DNA of 64,000 nt from Mycobacterium pseudokansasii (GTDB lineage: Bacteria; Actinomycetota; Actinomycetes; Mycobacteriales; Mycobacteriaceae): contig NZ_UPHU01000001.1 in NCBI RefSeq assembly GCF_900566075.1, positions 5,642,325 through 5,706,324 on the forward strand, in the 5' to 3' direction. Below are positions 15,350-28,504 of this stretch, in pieces. How positions within the stretch are numbered: position 1 is the first letter of the stretch; every line of letters starts with the position of its first letter. The notes under the pieces were generated by a model that had not been told where the DNA came from, did no database searches, and saw only the letters and a program-made list of their open reading frames with translations. A program made the translations under genes and the position numbers.

Positions 15350-15365
15350 GTTGCTCCTCATCCTT

Positions 15366-15582
15366 TGTTCGCGACCCGCTGCGCCCGGCTTCGCCGCGCT
15401 TGCGATCGCTCCTATCCCTATGCTCGCGACCCGCTGCGCCCGGCTTCGCCGCGCTTGCGATCGCTCCTATCCCTTTGTTCGCGACCCGCTGCGCCCGGCT
15501 TCGCCGCGCTTGCGATCGCTCCTATCCCTATGCTCGCGACCCGCTGCGCCCGGCTTCGCCGCGCTTGCGATCGCTCCTCTAT
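15366..15582. repeat. four-copy 55-bp tandem repeat (MIRU-like) between hsaE and hsaG
   Basis: Copies start at about 15371, 15426, 15481 and 15536, each beginning GCGACCCGCTGCGCCCGG and ending GCGATCGCTCCTATCCC, with small alternations (TTTGTTC/TATGCTC). The array fills the hsaE-hsaG gap and reaches the hsaE stop. Size and position resemble mycobacterial interspersed repetitive units; copy number is likely variable between strains. A related, diverged copy is at 26051. Confidence 0.9.
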
Positions 15583-22351: not shown

Positions 22352-23524
22352 TTAACCGAGAATCAGACCGGACGTCGGCACACCCGTCCCCGCGGTAACC
22401 AGGACATGCTCGACGTCGGGCACCGGGTTCACCGACGTGCCGCGCAGCTGCCGCACTCCTTCGGCGATGCCGTTCATTCCGTGGATGTAGGCCTCGCCGA
22501 GCTGGCCACCGTGGGTGTTGATCGGCAGCTGCCCACCCACCTCGATGGCGCCGTCGGCGATGAAGTCTTTGGCTTCGCCGCGGCCGCAGAACCCCAACTC
22601 CTCCAACTGAATCAGGGTGAACGGGGTGAAATGGTCGTACAGCACCGCGGTCTGGATGTCGGTGGGCTTCAAGCCGGATTGCGCCCACAGCTGCCGGCCC
22701 ACCAAGCCCATCTCCGGCAGGCCGTCGAGTTCGGGCCGGTAGTAGCTGACCATCGTGTACTGGTCAGGGCTGGAGCCCTGTGAGGCCGCCTCGATGACCG
22801 CAGGGCGCTGCTTGAGATCCCGCGCCCGCTCAGCCGAGGTCACCACGATCGCGACCGCGCCATCGGTCTCCTGGCAACAGTCCAGCAACCGCAACGGCTC
22901 GGCGATCCACCGCGAATTCTGGTGGTCCTCAATGGTTATCGGCTTCTGGTAGAAGTAGGCTTTCGGATTGTTGGCAGCATGCTTGCGGTCGGCCACCGAG
23001 ATCACGCCGAAGTCCCGGCTGGTCGCACCGGACAGGTGCATGTAGCGCCTGGCGATCATGGCGACCTGGGCCGCCGGTGTCGAAAGCCCGTGCGGATACG
23101 AGAATGAATTGTCCGCTGCCGTCGAATCAGCCTGCGCCCCCGCAGTTCCCACCAGCCGAGTCTGCACCTGGCCGAACCGCATGCCGGACCGCTCGTTGAA
23201 TGCCCGGTACGCCACCACCACATCGGCCACGCCGGTCGCGACGGCCATCGCCGCGTGCTGGATGGTCGCGCAGGCGGCGCCGCCGCCGTAGTGGATCTTG
23301 GAAAAGAACTTCAGCTCACCGATACCCACCGCGCGTGCAACCGCGATCTCGGTATTCGTGTCCATCGTGAACGTGGTCAGTCCGTCGACGTCGGCAGGGC
23401 TCAAACCGGCGTCGTCCAGCGCATCCAGCACCGCCTCGGCCGCCAACCGCAGCTCACTTCGGCCGGAGTCCTTCGAGAAGTCGGTGGCGCCGATGCCGAC
23501 GACGGCGGCTTTACCGGACAACAC
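22352..23524 (-). CDS. ltp2: 17-hydroxy-3-oxochol-pregn aldolase subunit Ltp2
   Basis: A 390-residue SCPx/thiolase-fold protein beginning LSGKAAVVGIGATDFSKDSG. It includes IHYGGGAACATIQHAAMAVA at the nucleophile loop and GGQLPINTHGGQLGEAYIHG near the C terminus. Ltp2 with the DUF35 domain of ChsH2 performs the last retro-aldol step that releases the C3 side-chain unit. The start is GTG 23522-23524, overlapping the chsH1 TAG. It is the last gene of the igr-type operon cyp125-fadE28/29-chsH2-chsH1-ltp2. Length is close to Rv3540c (386 aa). Confidence 0.95.
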   Translation of the reverse strand: MLSGKAAVVGIGATDFSKDSGRSELRLAAEAVLDALDDAGLSPADVDGLTTFTMDTNTEIAVARAVGIGELKFFSKIHYGGGAACATIQHAAMAVATGVADVVVAYRAFNERSGMRFGQVQTRLVGTAGAQADSTAADNSFSYPHGLSTPAAQVAMIARRYMHLSGATSRDFGVISVADRKHAANNPKAYFYQKPITIEDHQNSRWIAEPLRLLDCCQETDGAVAIVVTSAERARDLKQRPAVIEAASQGSSPDQYTMVSYYRPELDGLPEMGLVGRQLWAQSGLKPTDIQTAVLYDHFTPFTLIQLEELGFCGRGEAKDFIADGAIEVGGQLPINTHGGQLGEAYIHGMNGIAEGVRQLRGTSVNPVPDVEHVLVTAGTGVPTSGLILG

Positions 23525-23925
23525 TACGCATCCCCCATCGTCAGCTTCACCGTAGCGATCACATGATCGCCAAGGCTGTTGCGGCCCAACACCTTCACCG
23601 TGACCACGCCGTCGTCGACAGCAGTCACCTCACCGGCGAACGTCACCGTGTCGTCGGCGTACCACGGCACCCCGAGCCGCAACCCGATCGACTTGATCAG
23701 CGCCGACGGCCCCGCCCAGTCGGTGACGTAACGCTGCACCAGCCCGGTATCGGTGAGGATGTTGACGAAGATGTCCTTCGACCCTTTGGCCTGTGCTTTG
23801 TCGCGGTCATGGTGTACATCCTGAAAGTCCCGGGTGGCCAACGCTGTCGAGATGATGAACGTGGGATCGCCATACAGTTTCAGCTCGGGCAGCTGCGTGC
23901 CCACAGCCACAACCGGCGCGCTCAT
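23524..23925 (-). CDS. chsH1: MaoC-like hydratase subunit ChsH1
   Basis: A 133-residue single hot-dog subunit (MSAPVVAVGTQLPELKLYGD...) with the hydratase motif DFQDVHHDRDKAQAKGSKDIF. It forms a heterotetramer with ChsH2 that hydrates the 17(20)-ene of the three-carbon side-chain CoA ester. The start at 23925 matches Rv3541c; its ATG overlaps the chsH2 stop (ATGA) and its TAG overlaps the ltp2 GTG, so translation is coupled across all three. Confidence 0.95.
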   Translation of the reverse strand: MSAPVVAVGTQLPELKLYGDPTFIISTALATRDFQDVHHDRDKAQAKGSKDIFVNILTDTGLVQRYVTDWAGPSALIKSIGLRLGVPWYADDTVTFAGEVTAVDDGVVTVKVLGRNSLGDHVIATVKLTMGDA

Positions 23926-24869
23926 GCGTCCGGCTCCCAGGCGTACAGGGTCCACTCCGGGCCGGAGTCACCAGCTGGGAAATCGATATACGTCGCGCGA
24001 ACCGGCATTCCGATCTCCACTCGTGACGGGTCGACGTTGCGCAGCTCACCCAGCATGCGCACGCCTCCCTCGAGCTCAACCAGCGCGATCACGAAAGGCA
24101 CTGTGCGGCCGGGCACCTTGGGTGCGTGGTGCACCACGAAGCTGAACACCGTGCCACGACCGCTGGACACTGCGTAGTCGATCGACGCGGAAGGCTCCTG
24201 CCACACCGCCGGAACCGGCGGATGCTGCAGGCTGCCGTCGGGCCGCCGTTGGATGCGCAACTCGTGAGCCGCAACGCCTTCCCAGAAGAACGCAGTGTCG
24301 CGCGACAACGACGGCCGCATCATCGCATCGGGATCCAGATCTTCGGGGACCGCGACGCCAACCGACGCAGCTGGCCTGAATTTCAAGATACGCCAATCCA
24401 TCTCGGCGACGTCCTCGTCGCCGACGCGCCAGACGGTGTGCTGGTTGACGAACCAGCCTTCCCCGAGCGCGGTCTGCTTGGGCCCGACAACGTCACCCAG
24501 TTCGGCGGTGATGGTGACCTGCTCGCCCGGGCGTAGGTACCGGTGATAGGTCTGCTCACAGTTGGTGGCCACCACGCCGATATAGCCGGCGTCGTCGAAC
24601 AGCTTCATGACCGGACCCAGCGGGTCGTCCTTGGGTCGTTGCCCGCCAAGCCCGTACATCGTCCAGACCTGAATCATCGCCGGGGGCGCGACAATCCCCG
24701 GATGGCCGACGGCCCGAGCGGCGTCGTCATCGACGTAGATGGGGTTGCGGTCGCCGATGGCCTCCACCCAGTTGTTGATCATCGGCTGGTTCACCGGGTC
24801 CCGGGCGGCGCGCGGCTTACTGCTGCCGGCCGCCTTGATCTGCGTGATGGCTTCCCGGATATCGGTCAT
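23922..24869 (-). CDS. chsH2: MaoC-DUF35 fusion hydratase/aldolase partner ChsH2
   Basis: A 315-residue two-domain protein. The N-terminal MaoC-like domain contains INNWVEAIGDRNPIYVDDDA and HPGIVAPPAMIQVWTMYGL. The C-terminal DUF35 domain contains AHELRIQRRPDGSLQHPPVP and GTVFSFVVHHAPKVPGRTVP. The N domain pairs with ChsH1 for hydration; the DUF35 domain is needed by Ltp2. The start at 24869 overlaps the stop of the FadE29 part (ATGA). Length is close to Rv3542c (311 aa). All catalytic segments look intact. Confidence 0.96.
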   Translation of the reverse strand: MTDIREAITQIKAAGSSKPRAARDPVNQPMINNWVEAIGDRNPIYVDDDAARAVGHPGIVAPPAMIQVWTMYGLGGQRPKDDPLGPVMKLFDDAGYIGVVATNCEQTYHRYLRPGEQVTITAELGDVVGPKQTALGEGWFVNQHTVWRVGDEDVAEMDWRILKFRPAASVGVAVPEDLDPDAMMRPSLSRDTAFFWEGVAAHELRIQRRPDGSLQHPPVPAVWQEPSASIDYAVSSGRGTVFSFVVHHAPKVPGRTVPFVIALVELEGGVRMLGELRNVDPSRVEIGMPVRATYIDFPAGDSGPEWTLYAWEPDA

Positions 24870-27115
24870 CGAGGCACCCTCGGCACTTTGAGGCCGGAGG
24901 CGGCGATCATCTCCCGCATGACTTCGTTGACGCCACCGCCGAAGGTGATCACCAGATTGCGTTTGGTCTGCGAGTCCAGCCACTCGAGCAGCTCGGCCGT
25001 GTCCGGATCGGCCGGGTTCCCGTATTTGCCGACGATCTCTTCGGCGAGTCGACCGATGCGCTGAACACGTTCGGTACCAAAGACTTTCGTCGCCGCGGCA
25101 TCGGCCACGTTGATGTCCTCACCGGCAGCCGCCACCTGCCAATTCAGTAACTCGTTGATCCGCCAGGTCGCGTGGATCTCGCCGAGCGCCCGCTTGACAT
25201 CGTCGTGATCGATCGGTGCGACACCGTTGACGCCCGGCTTGCACGCCCAAGCACGCACCCGGTCGTAGATGCTGGCGAAGCGGCCGGCCGGGCCCAGCAT
25301 CACCCTCTCGTTGTTGAGCTGGGTGGTGATCAGCCGCCAGCCGCCGTTCTCCTCACCGACGAGCATGTCGACGGGCACCCGTACGTCGTTGTAGTAGGTG
25401 GCGTTGGTGTGGTGGGCTCCATCGGACAGGATGATCGGCGTCCACGAGTAGCCGGGGTCCTTGGTGTCGACGATGAGAATCGAAATCCCTTTGTGTTTAA
25501 CGGCTTCGGGGTCGGTCCGACATGCCAGCCAGATGTAATCGGCGTCATGGGCTCCGGTGGTGAAGATCTTCTGGCCGTCGACGATATACTCGTCGCCCTG
25601 ACGCACGGCCGTTGTCCGCAACGACGCCAGGTCGGTGCCGGCTTCGGGTTCGGTGTAGCCGATCGCGAAGTGCACCTCACCGGCCAGGATCGCCGGCAGG
25701 AACTTCTGCTTCTGCATCTCGCTGCCGTACACCTGCAGGGTGGGTCCGACGGTCTGCAACGTCACCGCGGGCAGCGGCACGTCGGCCCGATGCGCCTCGT
25801 TGACGAAGATCTGCTGCTCTATCGGACCAAATCCACGACCGCCGAACTCCTTTGGCCACCCGACGCCGAGCATGCCGTCGCGGCCCATCCGCCGGATCAC
25901 GGCGCGATACGCGGCGCCATGGCGGTCCTTCTCCATCTCCTTGGCCTCGTCGGGCGAGATCAACGTCGAAAAGTATTGCCGTATCTCGGCTTGCAGCTGC
26001 CGCTGCTCCGGAGTCAAGTCTATGAACATTGCGCCCGGGCCATCTGCGTGGCGACCCGCCGCCCCCGGCTGCGCCGCGCTCGGCTGCGCCGTGCCCGGCT
26101 GCGCCGCGCTCGCGATCCCCACGAGCTCGAGACGATGCGACGGCCCACCCAGCAACCGGGTCAGGTCTTTGATCGTGGAGTAATACCGGTGCATCGGATA
26201 AGTGATGTCCATTCCCATACCCCCGTGCAGGTGATGACAGATCTGCATCACCGGCGGCGCCTGAGACGTTAACCAATATCCGAGCACGTCGAGGTCGTCA
26301 TCGGCGTCACGACCTTCAGCCAGCCGCCAGTTCACCGACTTGGCCGCCAAATCGATGGTGCGCGAGGCGATATAGACCTCGGCGAGCTGCGCGGCCACGG
26401 TCTGGAAGGTGGACAGTGGCTTGCCGAACTGCTTCCGGTTGGCCACATAGTCGGCAGTAAGCCGCAACGCACCAGCCACCAGTCCGTCGGCATACGCACC
26501 CACCATCGCCAAAGCCAGCTGGTTGATCCGGTGCGCCGAAGAGCCCACCAGAACGTCGGATTCGGCAACCGCCACGTCGCTGAACGTCACCGTGTACTCA
26601 TCGGAACCGTTCGACGTCGGCGTGCGCACCAGCTGCACCCCCTCGGCTGTCGGTGACACCACCACGACCGCATTGTCGGCGGTAACGACCATCCAGTCCG
26701 CCTGCCCGGCATACCCGACACCAATCTTGGTGCCCGACAACCTGCCGCCCACAAAACTGGTCGACGGCCGGTCGGGCAGCGGGGCGCCCGGCTCGTTGAG
26801 CGCCGCGGTCAACACCGCGCCCTTGGCGACCCCGGCCAGGTACCGGTCCTGCTGCTCATTGGTGGCCAGATCAAGCAACGCCACCACACCCAGACCCAGC
26901 GTTGCCAGCGCCGGTGTGACGGCACCGTGCCGCCCGGCTTCGGTCAGCACGGTCCCCACTTCGAGCAGCCCGACGCCGTCGCCGCCGAGCCGTTCCGGCA
27001 CCGGCAACGCCGTCACTCCGCCGTCGACCAGCGCAGCCCAGGAGGTATCCCGCTGCAGCACCGACGTGACCACGTCGGCCACCGCCTGCTGTTCCGCGGT
27101 GAGATCGAAGTCCAT
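24866..27115 (-). CDS. fused acyl-CoA dehydrogenase FadE28-FadE29 (ChsE1-ChsE2) in one frame
   Basis: One uninterrupted frame of 749 codons. Residues 1 to about 332 (MDFDLTAEQQAVADVVTSV ... GPSHRLELV) are FadE28/ChsE1. Residues 363-749 (MFIDLTPEQRQLQAEIRQY ... GLKVPRVPR) are FadE29/ChsE2, exactly 387 residues like Rv3543c. Between them is a 30-residue linker with pentapeptide repeats AQPGT-AQPSA-AQPGA, encoded by a MIRU-like repeat. In M. tuberculosis these are separate genes whose products form an alpha2beta2 enzyme dehydrogenating the 3-carbon side-chain CoA. FadE29 keeps ATG 26029, so separate internal translation is possible, but no ribosome site precedes it. The start at 27115 overlaps the cyp125 stop (TAATG); the end overlaps chsH2. 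Confidence 0.9.
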   Translation of the reverse strand: MDFDLTAEQQAVADVVTSVLQRDTSWAALVDGGVTALPVPERLGGDGVGLLEVGTVLTEAGRHGAVTPALATLGLGVVALLDLATNEQQDRYLAGVAKGAVLTAALNEPGAPLPDRPSTSFVGGRLSGTKIGVGYAGQADWMVVTADNAVVVVSPTAEGVQLVRTPTSNGSDEYTVTFSDVAVAESDVLVGSSAHRINQLALAMVGAYADGLVAGALRLTADYVANRKQFGKPLSTFQTVAAQLAEVYIASRTIDLAAKSVNWRLAEGRDADDDLDVLGYWLTSQAPPVMQICHHLHGGMGMDITYPMHRYYSTIKDLTRLLGGPSHRLELVGIASAAQPGTAQPSAAQPGAAGRHADGPGAMFIDLTPEQRQLQAEIRQYFSTLISPDEAKEMEKDRHGAAYRAVIRRMGRDGMLGVGWPKEFGGRGFGPIEQQIFVNEAHRADVPLPAVTLQTVGPTLQVYGSEMQKQKFLPAILAGEVHFAIGYTEPEAGTDLASLRTTAVRQGDEYIVDGQKIFTTGAHDADYIWLACRTDPEAVKHKGISILIVDTKDPGYSWTPIILSDGAHHTNATYYNDVRVPVDMLVGEENGGWRLITTQLNNERVMLGPAGRFASIYDRVRAWACKPGVNGVAPIDHDDVKRALGEIHATWRINELLNWQVAAAGEDINVADAAATKVFGTERVQRIGRLAEEIVGKYGNPADPDTAELLEWLDSQTKRNLVITFGGGVNEVMREMIAASGLKVPRVPR
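26051..26117. repeat. diverged copy of the hsaE-hsaG repeat inside the FadE28-FadE29 frame
   Basis: The DNA starts GCGACCCGCCGCCCCCGG and ends GCGCTCGCGATC, like the 55-bp unit at 15371, but contains three 15-bp steps of CGGCTGCGCCG(C/T)GC(T/C). Read on the minus strand it encodes the AQPxx linker in frame, without a stop. Confidence 0.8.
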
Positions 27116-28443
27116 TACCGCGCCGCGGAACTCGAGACGGCGCCCGCCACCGCACTGGGCTGTCTGGCAGCTACCGGGCACGTGCCGGCGTAGTCGACCT
27201 GCCAGTGCTTGATGCCGTTGAGCCAGCCCGACCGCAGCCGCTGCGGCGCCGAGATCGGCGTCAGGTCCGGCATGTGGTCGGCGATGGCGTTGAACATCAG
27301 GTTGATGGTCAGCCGGGCCAGGTTGGCCCCGATGCAGTAATGCGCGCCGGTGCCGCCGAAGCCCACGTGCGGGTTGGGGTTTCGCAAGATGTTGAACGTG
27401 TAGGGGTCGTCGAAGACCTCTTCGTCGAAGTTGGCCGAGCGGTAGAACATCACCACCCGCTGGCCCTTCTTGATCTGGACTCCGGATAGTTCGTAGTCCT
27501 GCAGCGCGGTCCGCTGGAAGCAGGTGACCGGAGTGGCCCAGCGCACGATCTCATCGGCGGCGGTCTCCGGACGCTCGTTCTTGTACAGCTCCCACTGGTC
27601 GGGGTGGTCCGCGAACGCCATCATGCCCTGGGTGATGGAATTGCGGCTGGTCTCGTTACCGGCGACCGCGAGCATCACCACGAAGAAACCGAACTCGTCG
27701 TCGGAGAGCTTTTCACCGTCGATGTCGGCCTGAATCAGCTGCGTCACGATGTCGTCGCCCGGATTCTTGGCCTTATCCTCGGCCATCTTCATCGCATAGC
27801 TGATCAGCTCCACCGAGGACGCCTTCGGGTCGACATGCGCGAATTCCGAGTCTTCGGTGCCGGTCATCTCGTTCGACCAGTGGAACAGCTTCCCGCGATC
27901 CTCCTGCGGCACACCCAGCAGACCCGCGATGGCCTGCAGCGGTAGCTCACAGGACACCTGCTCGACGAAGTCGCCGGAACCCTCGGCCGCTGCCGCTTTG
28001 GCAATCTTGTGAGCACGCTCGCTGAGTTCGGCTTCCAAGCGTCCGATCGCCCGCGGCGTGAACCCGCGGGAGATGATCTTGCGCAACCGGGTGTGATGGG
28101 GCGCGTCCTGGTTGAGCATGACGAACCGCTGCACCTCGATGTCCTCGCGCGCGATGTCGTTGTGGAACCGCGGGATCACGGTGTTCTCATAGCTGGAGAA
28201 CACGTCGCTGTGCCGCGATACCTCCTTGACGTCCTTGAGCTTGGTGATCGCCCAGAAGCCGCCGTCGTGGTAGCCGCCGCCGTGGCCGGGTGCCTGCTCG
28301 TTCCACCAGATCGGAGCGGATGCCCGCAATTCGGCAAATTCGGCGACCGGCAGCCGCTCGGCGTAGATGTCGGGGTCGGTGAAATCGAACCCGGGTGGGA
28401 GATTGGGGCAGGGCACGGTGCTTCTCCTAACTGCAGTCTTCAT
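27115..28443 (-). CDS. cyp125: cytochrome P450 Cyp125 (cholest-4-en-3-one 27-hydroxylase)
   Basis: A 442-residue P450. The I-helix is FFVVMLAVAGNETSRNSITQ, ExxR lies in the K-helix region, and the haem-binding loop is HVGFGGTGAHYCIGANLAR with the proximal Cys. Cyp125 oxidises the terminal methyl of the cholesterol side chain to the carboxylate. The start at 28443 (MKTAVRRSTVPCPNL) fits the M. tuberculosis N terminus; the C terminus is about ten residues longer (ending AVSSSAAR). It is the first gene of the minus-strand operon; KstR and another palindrome lie upstream. Confidence 0.97.
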   Translation of the reverse strand: MKTAVRRSTVPCPNLPPGFDFTDPDIYAERLPVAEFAELRASAPIWWNEQAPGHGGGYHDGGFWAITKLKDVKEVSRHSDVFSSYENTVIPRFHNDIAREDIEVQRFVMLNQDAPHHTRLRKIISRGFTPRAIGRLEAELSERAHKIAKAAAAEGSGDFVEQVSCELPLQAIAGLLGVPQEDRGKLFHWSNEMTGTEDSEFAHVDPKASSVELISYAMKMAEDKAKNPGDDIVTQLIQADIDGEKLSDDEFGFFVVMLAVAGNETSRNSITQGMMAFADHPDQWELYKNERPETAADEIVRWATPVTCFQRTALQDYELSGVQIKKGQRVVMFYRSANFDEEVFDDPYTFNILRNPNPHVGFGGTGAHYCIGANLARLTINLMFNAIADHMPDLTPISAPQRLRSGWLNGIKHWQVDYAGTCPVAARQPSAVAGAVSSSAAR

Positions 28444-28480
28444 TGACCAAGGTGCGCTAGCTTGCGCCAGGCGATCCCTG

Positions 28481-28504
28481 GACAACTAGTTGTCACTAGT
28501 TGTC
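28481..28504. promoter_or_regulatory. perfect palindrome plus repeated half upstream of cyp125
   Basis: GACAACTAGTTGTC (28481-28494) is a perfect 14-bp palindrome, followed at once by ACTAGTTGTC, a second copy of its right part. It lies 38 bp before the cyp125 start and does not fit the KstR or KstR2 pattern, so it may bind another regulator. Confidence 0.5.

Follow-up and report, generated by a model that had tools for sequence, protein, structure and literature searches.

A fused ChsE1–ChsE2 acyl-CoA dehydrogenase in Mycobacterium pseudokansasii, probably joined through a MIRU-like repeat

How does an enzyme of two separately encoded subunits become one chain, and is that chain what the locus makes? 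ChsE1–ChsE2 (FadE28–FadE29), the α2β2 acyl-CoA dehydrogenase (ACAD) of the igr operon, is known as the product of two genes, whereas in this Mycobacterium pseudokansasii genome both halves lie in one open frame, connected by a linker derived from a repeat that resembles mycobacterial interspersed repetitive units (MIRUs). The window analyzed here is the whole stretch of 64,000 nucleotides (NCBI RefSeq assembly GCF_900566075.1, contig NZ_UPHU01000001.1, positions 5,642,325 to 5,706,324) that contains this locus. The fused fadE28–fadE29 (chsE1–chsE2) frame runs on the minus strand from ATG 27115 to TGA 24866 and encodes 749 amino acids plus the stop, with no internal stop codon; the program-made list of open reading frames begins it at GTG 27181, giving 771 amino acids. 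A preliminary description of the DNA had proposed one unbroken FadE28–FadE29 frame of 749 residues with a 30-residue Ala/Gln/Pro linker. The ATG-to-TGA reading bears this out and adds the strand, the linker is composed of Ala, Pro, Gln, and Gly, and the same boundaries were obtained from the frame and the junction reading. The features of the fused frame are as follows.

24866 to 27115, minus strand: fused fadE28–fadE29 (chsE1–chsE2) open frame, 749 amino acids (reading frame, Pfam, AlphaFold model)
26120 to 27115, minus strand: FadE28 (ChsE1) part, residues 1–332 (frame and junction reading)
26030 to 26119, minus strand: linker, residues 333–362, GIASAAQPGTAQPSAAQPGAAGRHADGPGA, of MIRU-like repeat origin (repeat consensus matched at 30 of 32 positions at the 5′ end of the linker)
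26057 to 26109, minus strand: 15-bp tandem repeat in the linker, 3.5 copies, two units above the sister species (repeat search and sister alignment)
26036 to 26037, minus strand: approximate site of a net 5-nt loss relative to the sisters (sister alignment)
24866 to 26029, minus strand: FadE29 (ChsE2) part, residues 363–749, with its own ATG retained (frame, alignment)

Pfam assigned PF02771 (N-terminal ACAD domain) and PF00441 (C-terminal domain) twice each and PF02770 (middle domain) once to the fused protein, and none of the 21 NCBIfam families found for it reached its own cut-off, leaving it without a specific family. Compared with genus relatives, the FadE29 half is 79–93% and the FadE28 half 66–85% identical, and matches to paralogues are 45–53% identical. 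The open frame is not a chance one, because both halves are full-length orthologues and carry paired Pfam domains. The FadE28 core is 90.4–97.0% identical to those of five species of the M. kansasii complex. The approximately 8 kb around the locus align to these species in pieces with 88.8–94.9% nucleotide identity, which places the window within this complex but apparently in none of the five species compared; by elimination, M. kansasii sensu stricto and M. pseudokansasii are left.

In these five sister species, the same junction holds one to five units of a repeat of about 57 bp: one in M. ostraviense, one in M. persicum, three in M. gastri, four in M. attenuatum (the last shortened), and five in M. 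innocens. One unit codes for 19 residues, for example AIASAAQPGAAGRHADDPV, so that FadE28 of the sisters has a repeat-coded tail; its frame, stop included, extends 1 or 16 nt into fadE29. The stop–start overlap is retained in all five, and all five are split. In the window, the 32-mer consensus of the repeat matches at 30 of 32 positions directly after the FadE28 core. A search of the window's own genome with the junction found dispersed, frequently tandem, partial copies at a spacing of 54–60 bp; a 30-base core pattern (≤3 mismatches) gave 36 sites there and none with the reversed control, and it was matched in 10 of 31 genomes. The preliminary description was silent on the source of the linker, which was found to be this dispersed repeat; in the sister species, it already forms the tail of FadE28.

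MIRUs are dispersed elements of 46–101 bp with variable copy number, according to the available part of PMC5849605, and the excerpt of PMC12548453 reports that they insert at start codons with coupling retained. The repeat of the window is likewise short (57-bp unit), dispersed (36 sites), and variable in tandem copy number (one to five in the five sisters). It also sits at stop/start junctions of operon genes, where the overlap kept in the five sisters would preserve coupling, and further copies lie between gene pairs. It differs in that the element in the window does not make up a short coupled frame but links the two halves in frame, and "MIRU-like" refers here to this description, not to the sequence of the M. 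tuberculosis MIRU.

Further copies of the family were noted. Four tandem 55-bp copies occupy window positions 15350–15580 on the minus strand; the genes on either side belong to the steroid ring-degradation region and appear to encode a hydratase and an acetaldehyde dehydrogenase. Elsewhere in the genome, four 57-bp units at C1:4492293–4492493 (L032–L034) separate two genes that stay separate and that we take to be thrC and thrB. At C1:5036147–5036995 (L195, the same place as L037), the repeat is in frame within an enoyl-CoA hydratase-like gene, where it adds 17–18 residues absent in all eight relatives compared. The sites show a strand bias (4 forward and 32 reverse, versus 53 and 56 in genome G001), although tandem arrays inflate this count.

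The preliminary description had named a comparison of the junction in related species as a check, and this comparison locates the step from split to fused. The repeat of the window contains two more 15-bp units than that of M. ostraviense, a single copy, and just before the fadE29 ATG 5 nt net have been lost; with a substitution in addition, the difference is not a one-base slip. The spacer thus changes from 65 nt to 90 nt (65 + 30 − 5), which shifts its phase from 2 to 0 and brings FadE28 in frame with FadE29, whose Met (position 26029) becomes residue 363 of the fused protein. The lost stretch includes the GGAG of GTGGGAGCGCA-ATG. The same 5-nt loss therefore joined the frames and removed the GGAG of fadE29 together.

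To place this junction among others, 153 loci were collected; L003 and L106, whose contigs contain no FadE28, were removed along with 22 duplicates, leaving 129 distinct junctions. Seven of these, including the window, are fused, and 122 are split. By subset, a set of 80 named loci contained 4 fused and 75 split junctions and L106, and among 40 relatives, 20 had a readable junction, all of them split (overlap, abutting stop, or short gap). The six other fused junctions are listed below; MAG denotes a metagenome-assembled genome.

L064, Mycolicibacter kumamotonensis, and L066, M. sinensis: repeat present, ATG kept
L075, M. acidiphilus: CAG replaces ATG
L100, Streptosporangiales MAG: ATA at the start position
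L172 and L173, both of genus g21: no start codon

Repeat scores were tabulated for junctions with a spacer longer than 20 nt, and a repeat was called at ≥27 of 32 consensus matches; the reversed consensus reached at most 20 of 32 across the 129 junctions. The call applies to the window (30), L064 and L066 (27 and 28), the five sisters, and seven further loci, namely M. palustre (one copy), Mycobacterium sp. 1164966.3 (two copies), L141, L147, L163, L174, and L179. The window and the two Mycolicibacter junctions, where the repeat occupies the same position, are thus the only repeat carriers among the seven fused junctions read as DNA. L075, L100, L172, and L173 score only 17–19 of 32, which indicates that these fusions use other linkers.

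The loss of the start signal was compared across the same junctions. A Shine–Dalgarno (SD)-like motif was defined as one of the 4-mers GGAG, GAGG, AGGA, or GGGA upstream of fadE29, and duplex energy was calculated against a generic anti-SD. Such a 4-mer is present in 118 of the 122 split junctions and in one of the seven fused junctions, L173 (99 of 103 and none of 5, respectively, in an earlier subset without 24 order-level loci); L173 has CGC at the start position and hence no start codon. The duplex of the window has an energy of −4.2 kcal/mol, and that of the weakest split junction is −5.3 kcal/mol. The seven fused junctions give −4.2 (window), −5.5, −3.4, −2.5, −8.9 (L100), −3.2, and −6.6 (L173) kcal/mol. 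All three fused junctions that keep the ATG (window, L064, and L066) are without the motif, and the other four have no start codon at the FadE29 start position. Because the motif of fadE29 is gone in the window and the split and fused junctions contrast in this way, the single fused chain is probably the main product of the locus.

The fusion was then sought beyond these junctions. Among 396 genomes of the genus, 17 had a best E value of 0, all as one match across both halves, and three of the 17 are fused, namely the window genome and two with junctions equal to L064 and L066; these counts are among the matches listed, and a distant fusion that matches in two pieces could escape this survey. 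In 298 genomes of the order, of which 109 gave a match within the limit used, another two single unbroken matches turned up, both of g21 and fused by the junction test. A protein search limited to about 412–1310 amino acids, which excludes separate FadE28 and FadE29, returned 1261 proteins, and the following results refer to the best 120 of these, several of them partial. Fused-length proteins came from sources named Mycolicibacter, Gordonia, Dietzia, Tsukamurella, Rhodococcus, and Nocardioides, and for the closest full-length one the search itself gave 81% identity. In 60 fused-length proteins, including a few partial rows, the FadE29 halves are 63–90% and the FadE28 halves 41–81% identical to those of the window, and on the basis of these identities they were taken as orthologues. 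Another fused-length protein, P0037 (913 amino acids), has an extra PF13452 domain, which may come from the joining of a third gene, of ChsH2 type, or from an artefact of the sequence.

The FadE29 half also served for a quick maximum-likelihood tree of 86 rows (44 fused, 41 split, and 1 outgroup), rooted on FadE26 and supported by the Shimodaira–Hasegawa-like approximate likelihood ratio test (SH-aLRT) without bootstrap. From 265 rows, 73 representatives were kept and supplemented with one outgroup and 12 chosen loci; loci without a readable junction were dropped. The tree requires 14 changes between the fused and split states, 8 of which are forced by branches with SH-aLRT ≥95; gain and loss are indistinguishable by count, and many fused rows are metagenomic, some of which may be sequence errors. 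The window is placed among its split sisters. Judged from these sequences, ChsE1–ChsE2 fusion is recurrent across genera, with at least 8 forced state changes. The preliminary description did not speak of other fusions, and according to the protein search and the tree, the same one has arisen repeatedly elsewhere. Separately, L082 and protein P0250 are Mycobacterium-like FadE29 sequences in MAGs labelled Acidobacteria and Sericytochromatia, probably because of binning contamination.

For the function of the fused enzyme, the window protein was aligned with 61 of the best 120 fused-length proteins (62 rows). Arg227, Gln229, Phe230, and Gly231 of an RxQFG motif in the N-terminal half and Glu603 in the C-terminal half (FadE29 position 241) are invariant in all rows. 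We take Glu603 to be the catalytic base and RxQFG to have a role in binding flavin adenine dinucleotide (FAD). The linkers, counted with the start column, are 6–66 residues long and rich in Ala, Gly, Pro, and Ser, and the FadE29 start column holds Met in 28 rows and another residue in 34. The AlphaFold model has a predicted local distance difference test score (pLDDT) of 89.6 and a predicted template modeling score of 0.90, and only residues 338–359 fall below a pLDDT of 50. In the PDB, it most closely matches single subunits of ChsE4–ChsE5 (4x28) and Tcur3481–Tcur3483 (6wy8 and 6wy9). The window protein has orthologous halves in the operon order of ChsE1–ChsE2, the reaction of which is stated in the available part of PMC6678751; in each α–β pair, only one subunit has the catalytic Glu, and FAD lies at the interface, as far as the excerpt of PMC8399759 shows. 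We infer that the fused chains would form a dimer, a tethered (α–β)2 assembly with fixed stoichiometry and two active sites.

Here, we propose a history of the locus based on these comparisons. A MIRU-like repeat would have landed exactly at the fadE28/fadE29 stop–start overlap in the lineage of the window and its sisters. Its first outcome, as the sisters show, is a FadE28 with a repeat-coded tail of 19 amino acids per unit and the overlap with fadE29 kept. In the window lineage, assuming an ancestral state like that of the sisters, two added 15-bp units, together with the net removal of 5 nt where the repeat ends on its 3′ side, would have produced the in-frame 30-residue linker, and the same step would have stripped fadE29 of its SD-like GGAG. 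The ribosome would then read through to produce one chain of about 80 kDa, in which RxQFG, the motif for FAD contact, would come from the N-terminal half and the catalytic Glu from the C-terminal half; both sets of residues are observed, and their roles are those ascribed to them in acyl-CoA dehydrogenases. We estimate the probability that the fusion of ChsE1 and ChsE2 is real, recent, and made by the repeat, and thus of this account as a whole, at about 0.78.

Several observations weigh against this account. Four of the 122 split junctions likewise have no SD-like motif, L100 is fused with a strong duplex before its ATA, and L173 is fused with the motif present; loss of the motif accompanies fusion and does not prove that internal initiation is absent. 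The AlphaFold input was an alignment of fused-length proteins only and a single chain, and the model is silent on oligomerization. Among the best 120 of the 1261 database matches, from which records of the window's own genome were possibly left out, none is a fused protein from this species, and the closest database FadE28, from a MAG labelled M. pseudokansasii and 95.5% identical over the core, is split. As the closest fused protein is only 81% identical and the closest FadE28 is split, the fusion may be limited to the strain level.

The alternative that survives best is the one raised by the preliminary description, in which the locus yields the fused chain and, from the ATG still present, FadE29 on its own as well. 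The ATG is indeed kept at 26029, and the four split junctions without an obvious SD-like motif suggest that this motif is dispensable, but the GGAG is lost and the anti-SD duplex is weaker than in all 122 split junctions. In addition, no FadE28 stop lies near 26029 to feed termination–reinitiation, which depends strongly on stop–start proximity according to the available part of PMC10666635, where overlapping pairs are also described as enriched for subunits of heteromeric complexes. The 34 fused-length rows without Met in the start column, and the four fused junctions without a start codon, also argue against the production of both forms, which we regard as rather unlikely.

An assembly or base-calling error in the GC-rich repeat, with a true locus split as in the five sisters, appears improbable. 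A small indel error in such a repeat would shift the frame, but the difference consists of a net 5 nt, two 15-nt units, and a substitution, with the GGAG also gone, and is not a single homopolymer slip. Moreover, the genome consists of 2 contigs, is listed as 100% complete with 0.04 contamination, and has its chromosome in a single 6.3-Mb contig; fused relatives also exist independently. A gene pair in decay, with the fusion as a neutral or harmful mishap before its loss, is equally hard to credit: the fusion occurs in one genome of its complex, but the halves are full length, the motif residues are intact, the operon order is kept, and the same architecture is found in several genera. That the complex as a whole inherited an older fusion was rejected because all five sisters are split.

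The repeat-mediated fusion can be compared with known single-chain enzymes. The other fused ChsE1–ChsE2 proteins, for example those of Mycolicibacter sinensis (P0007), Gordonia (P0030), Dietzia (P0066), and Tsukamurella (P0097), have the same order and architecture, with 54–78% identity over 97–100% of the query, and are annotated at their sources as acyl-CoA dehydrogenase. Double-ACAD matches within the genus, which we presume to be CasC/FadE34, are 29–34% identical to the window protein. In Rhodococcus jostii RHA1, CasC is one chain with two fused ACAD domains, of which the N-terminal one is needed for FAD and only the C-terminal one has the Glu (PMC8399759, available part). The window protein also has two ACAD domains in one chain, with Glu603 conserved in the C-terminal half. 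CasC differs in acting on cholate-type side chains and not on shorter ones (same excerpt). By analogy, CasC is a functional precedent for a single-chain steroid ACAD. A literature search covering the beginnings of abstracts of open-licence papers found no description of a ChsE1–ChsE2 fusion or of a gene fusion made by a MIRU, and the main text of PMC10470612, as far as available, does not mention fadE28, fadE29, ChsE, or cholesterol. The architecture has precedent; the apparent route, in which a MIRU-like repeat joins the genes while the ribosome-binding motif is lost at the same time, and its parallel in Mycolicibacter were not met in this search.

The genes around the fused frame are as follows.

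27115 to 28485, minus strand: cytochrome P450 gene, upstream (Pfam)
23922 to 24869, minus strand: ChsH2-like hydratase/DUF35 gene (Pfam; the open reading frame list starts it at GTG 24983)
23524 to 23955, minus strand: MaoC-like gene in the ChsH1 position (weak Pfam match, 22.0 bits versus a cut-off of 27)
22352 to 23524, minus strand: thiolase-like gene in the Ltp2 position (Pfam Thiolase_N below its cut-off, 25.1 versus 26.4; Thiolase_C_1 passes)

The P450 gene, presumably in the position of cyp125, shares 1 nt of its stop with the fadE28 start (TAATG, by direct reading), and the likely ATG of the ChsH2-like gene and the fadE29 stop have 4 nt in common (ATGA). The order P450, fadE28–fadE29, chsH2, chsH1, and ltp2 is that of the igr operon, with the ChsH1 and Thiolase_N matches below threshold. 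The earlier assignment of the halves to FadE28 and FadE29 agrees with both this order and the orthologue identities, and a fused FadE26–FadE27 paralogue is ruled out by the operon context and the identities pointing to FadE28–FadE29.

It is tempting, but speculative, to view MIRU-like repeats as ready-made, frame-keeping linker modules that insert at stop/start overlaps, lose a few bases, and in this way repeatedly turn coupled heteromers into enzymes of one chain; for ChsE1–ChsE2 this would have happened at least twice (in the window lineage and in Mycolicibacter). If this is true, further coupled pairs of these genomes would be the next candidates. For one enzyme, these junctions offer a natural series from separate subunits, through subunits with a tail of one to five repeat units, to covalently joined ones. 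This series allows one to ask whether covalent fusion and translation coupled by overlap can stand in for each other in fixing subunit stoichiometry, and it gives variable-number tandem repeat-type elements a direct consequence at the protein level in a cholesterol-degradation operon.

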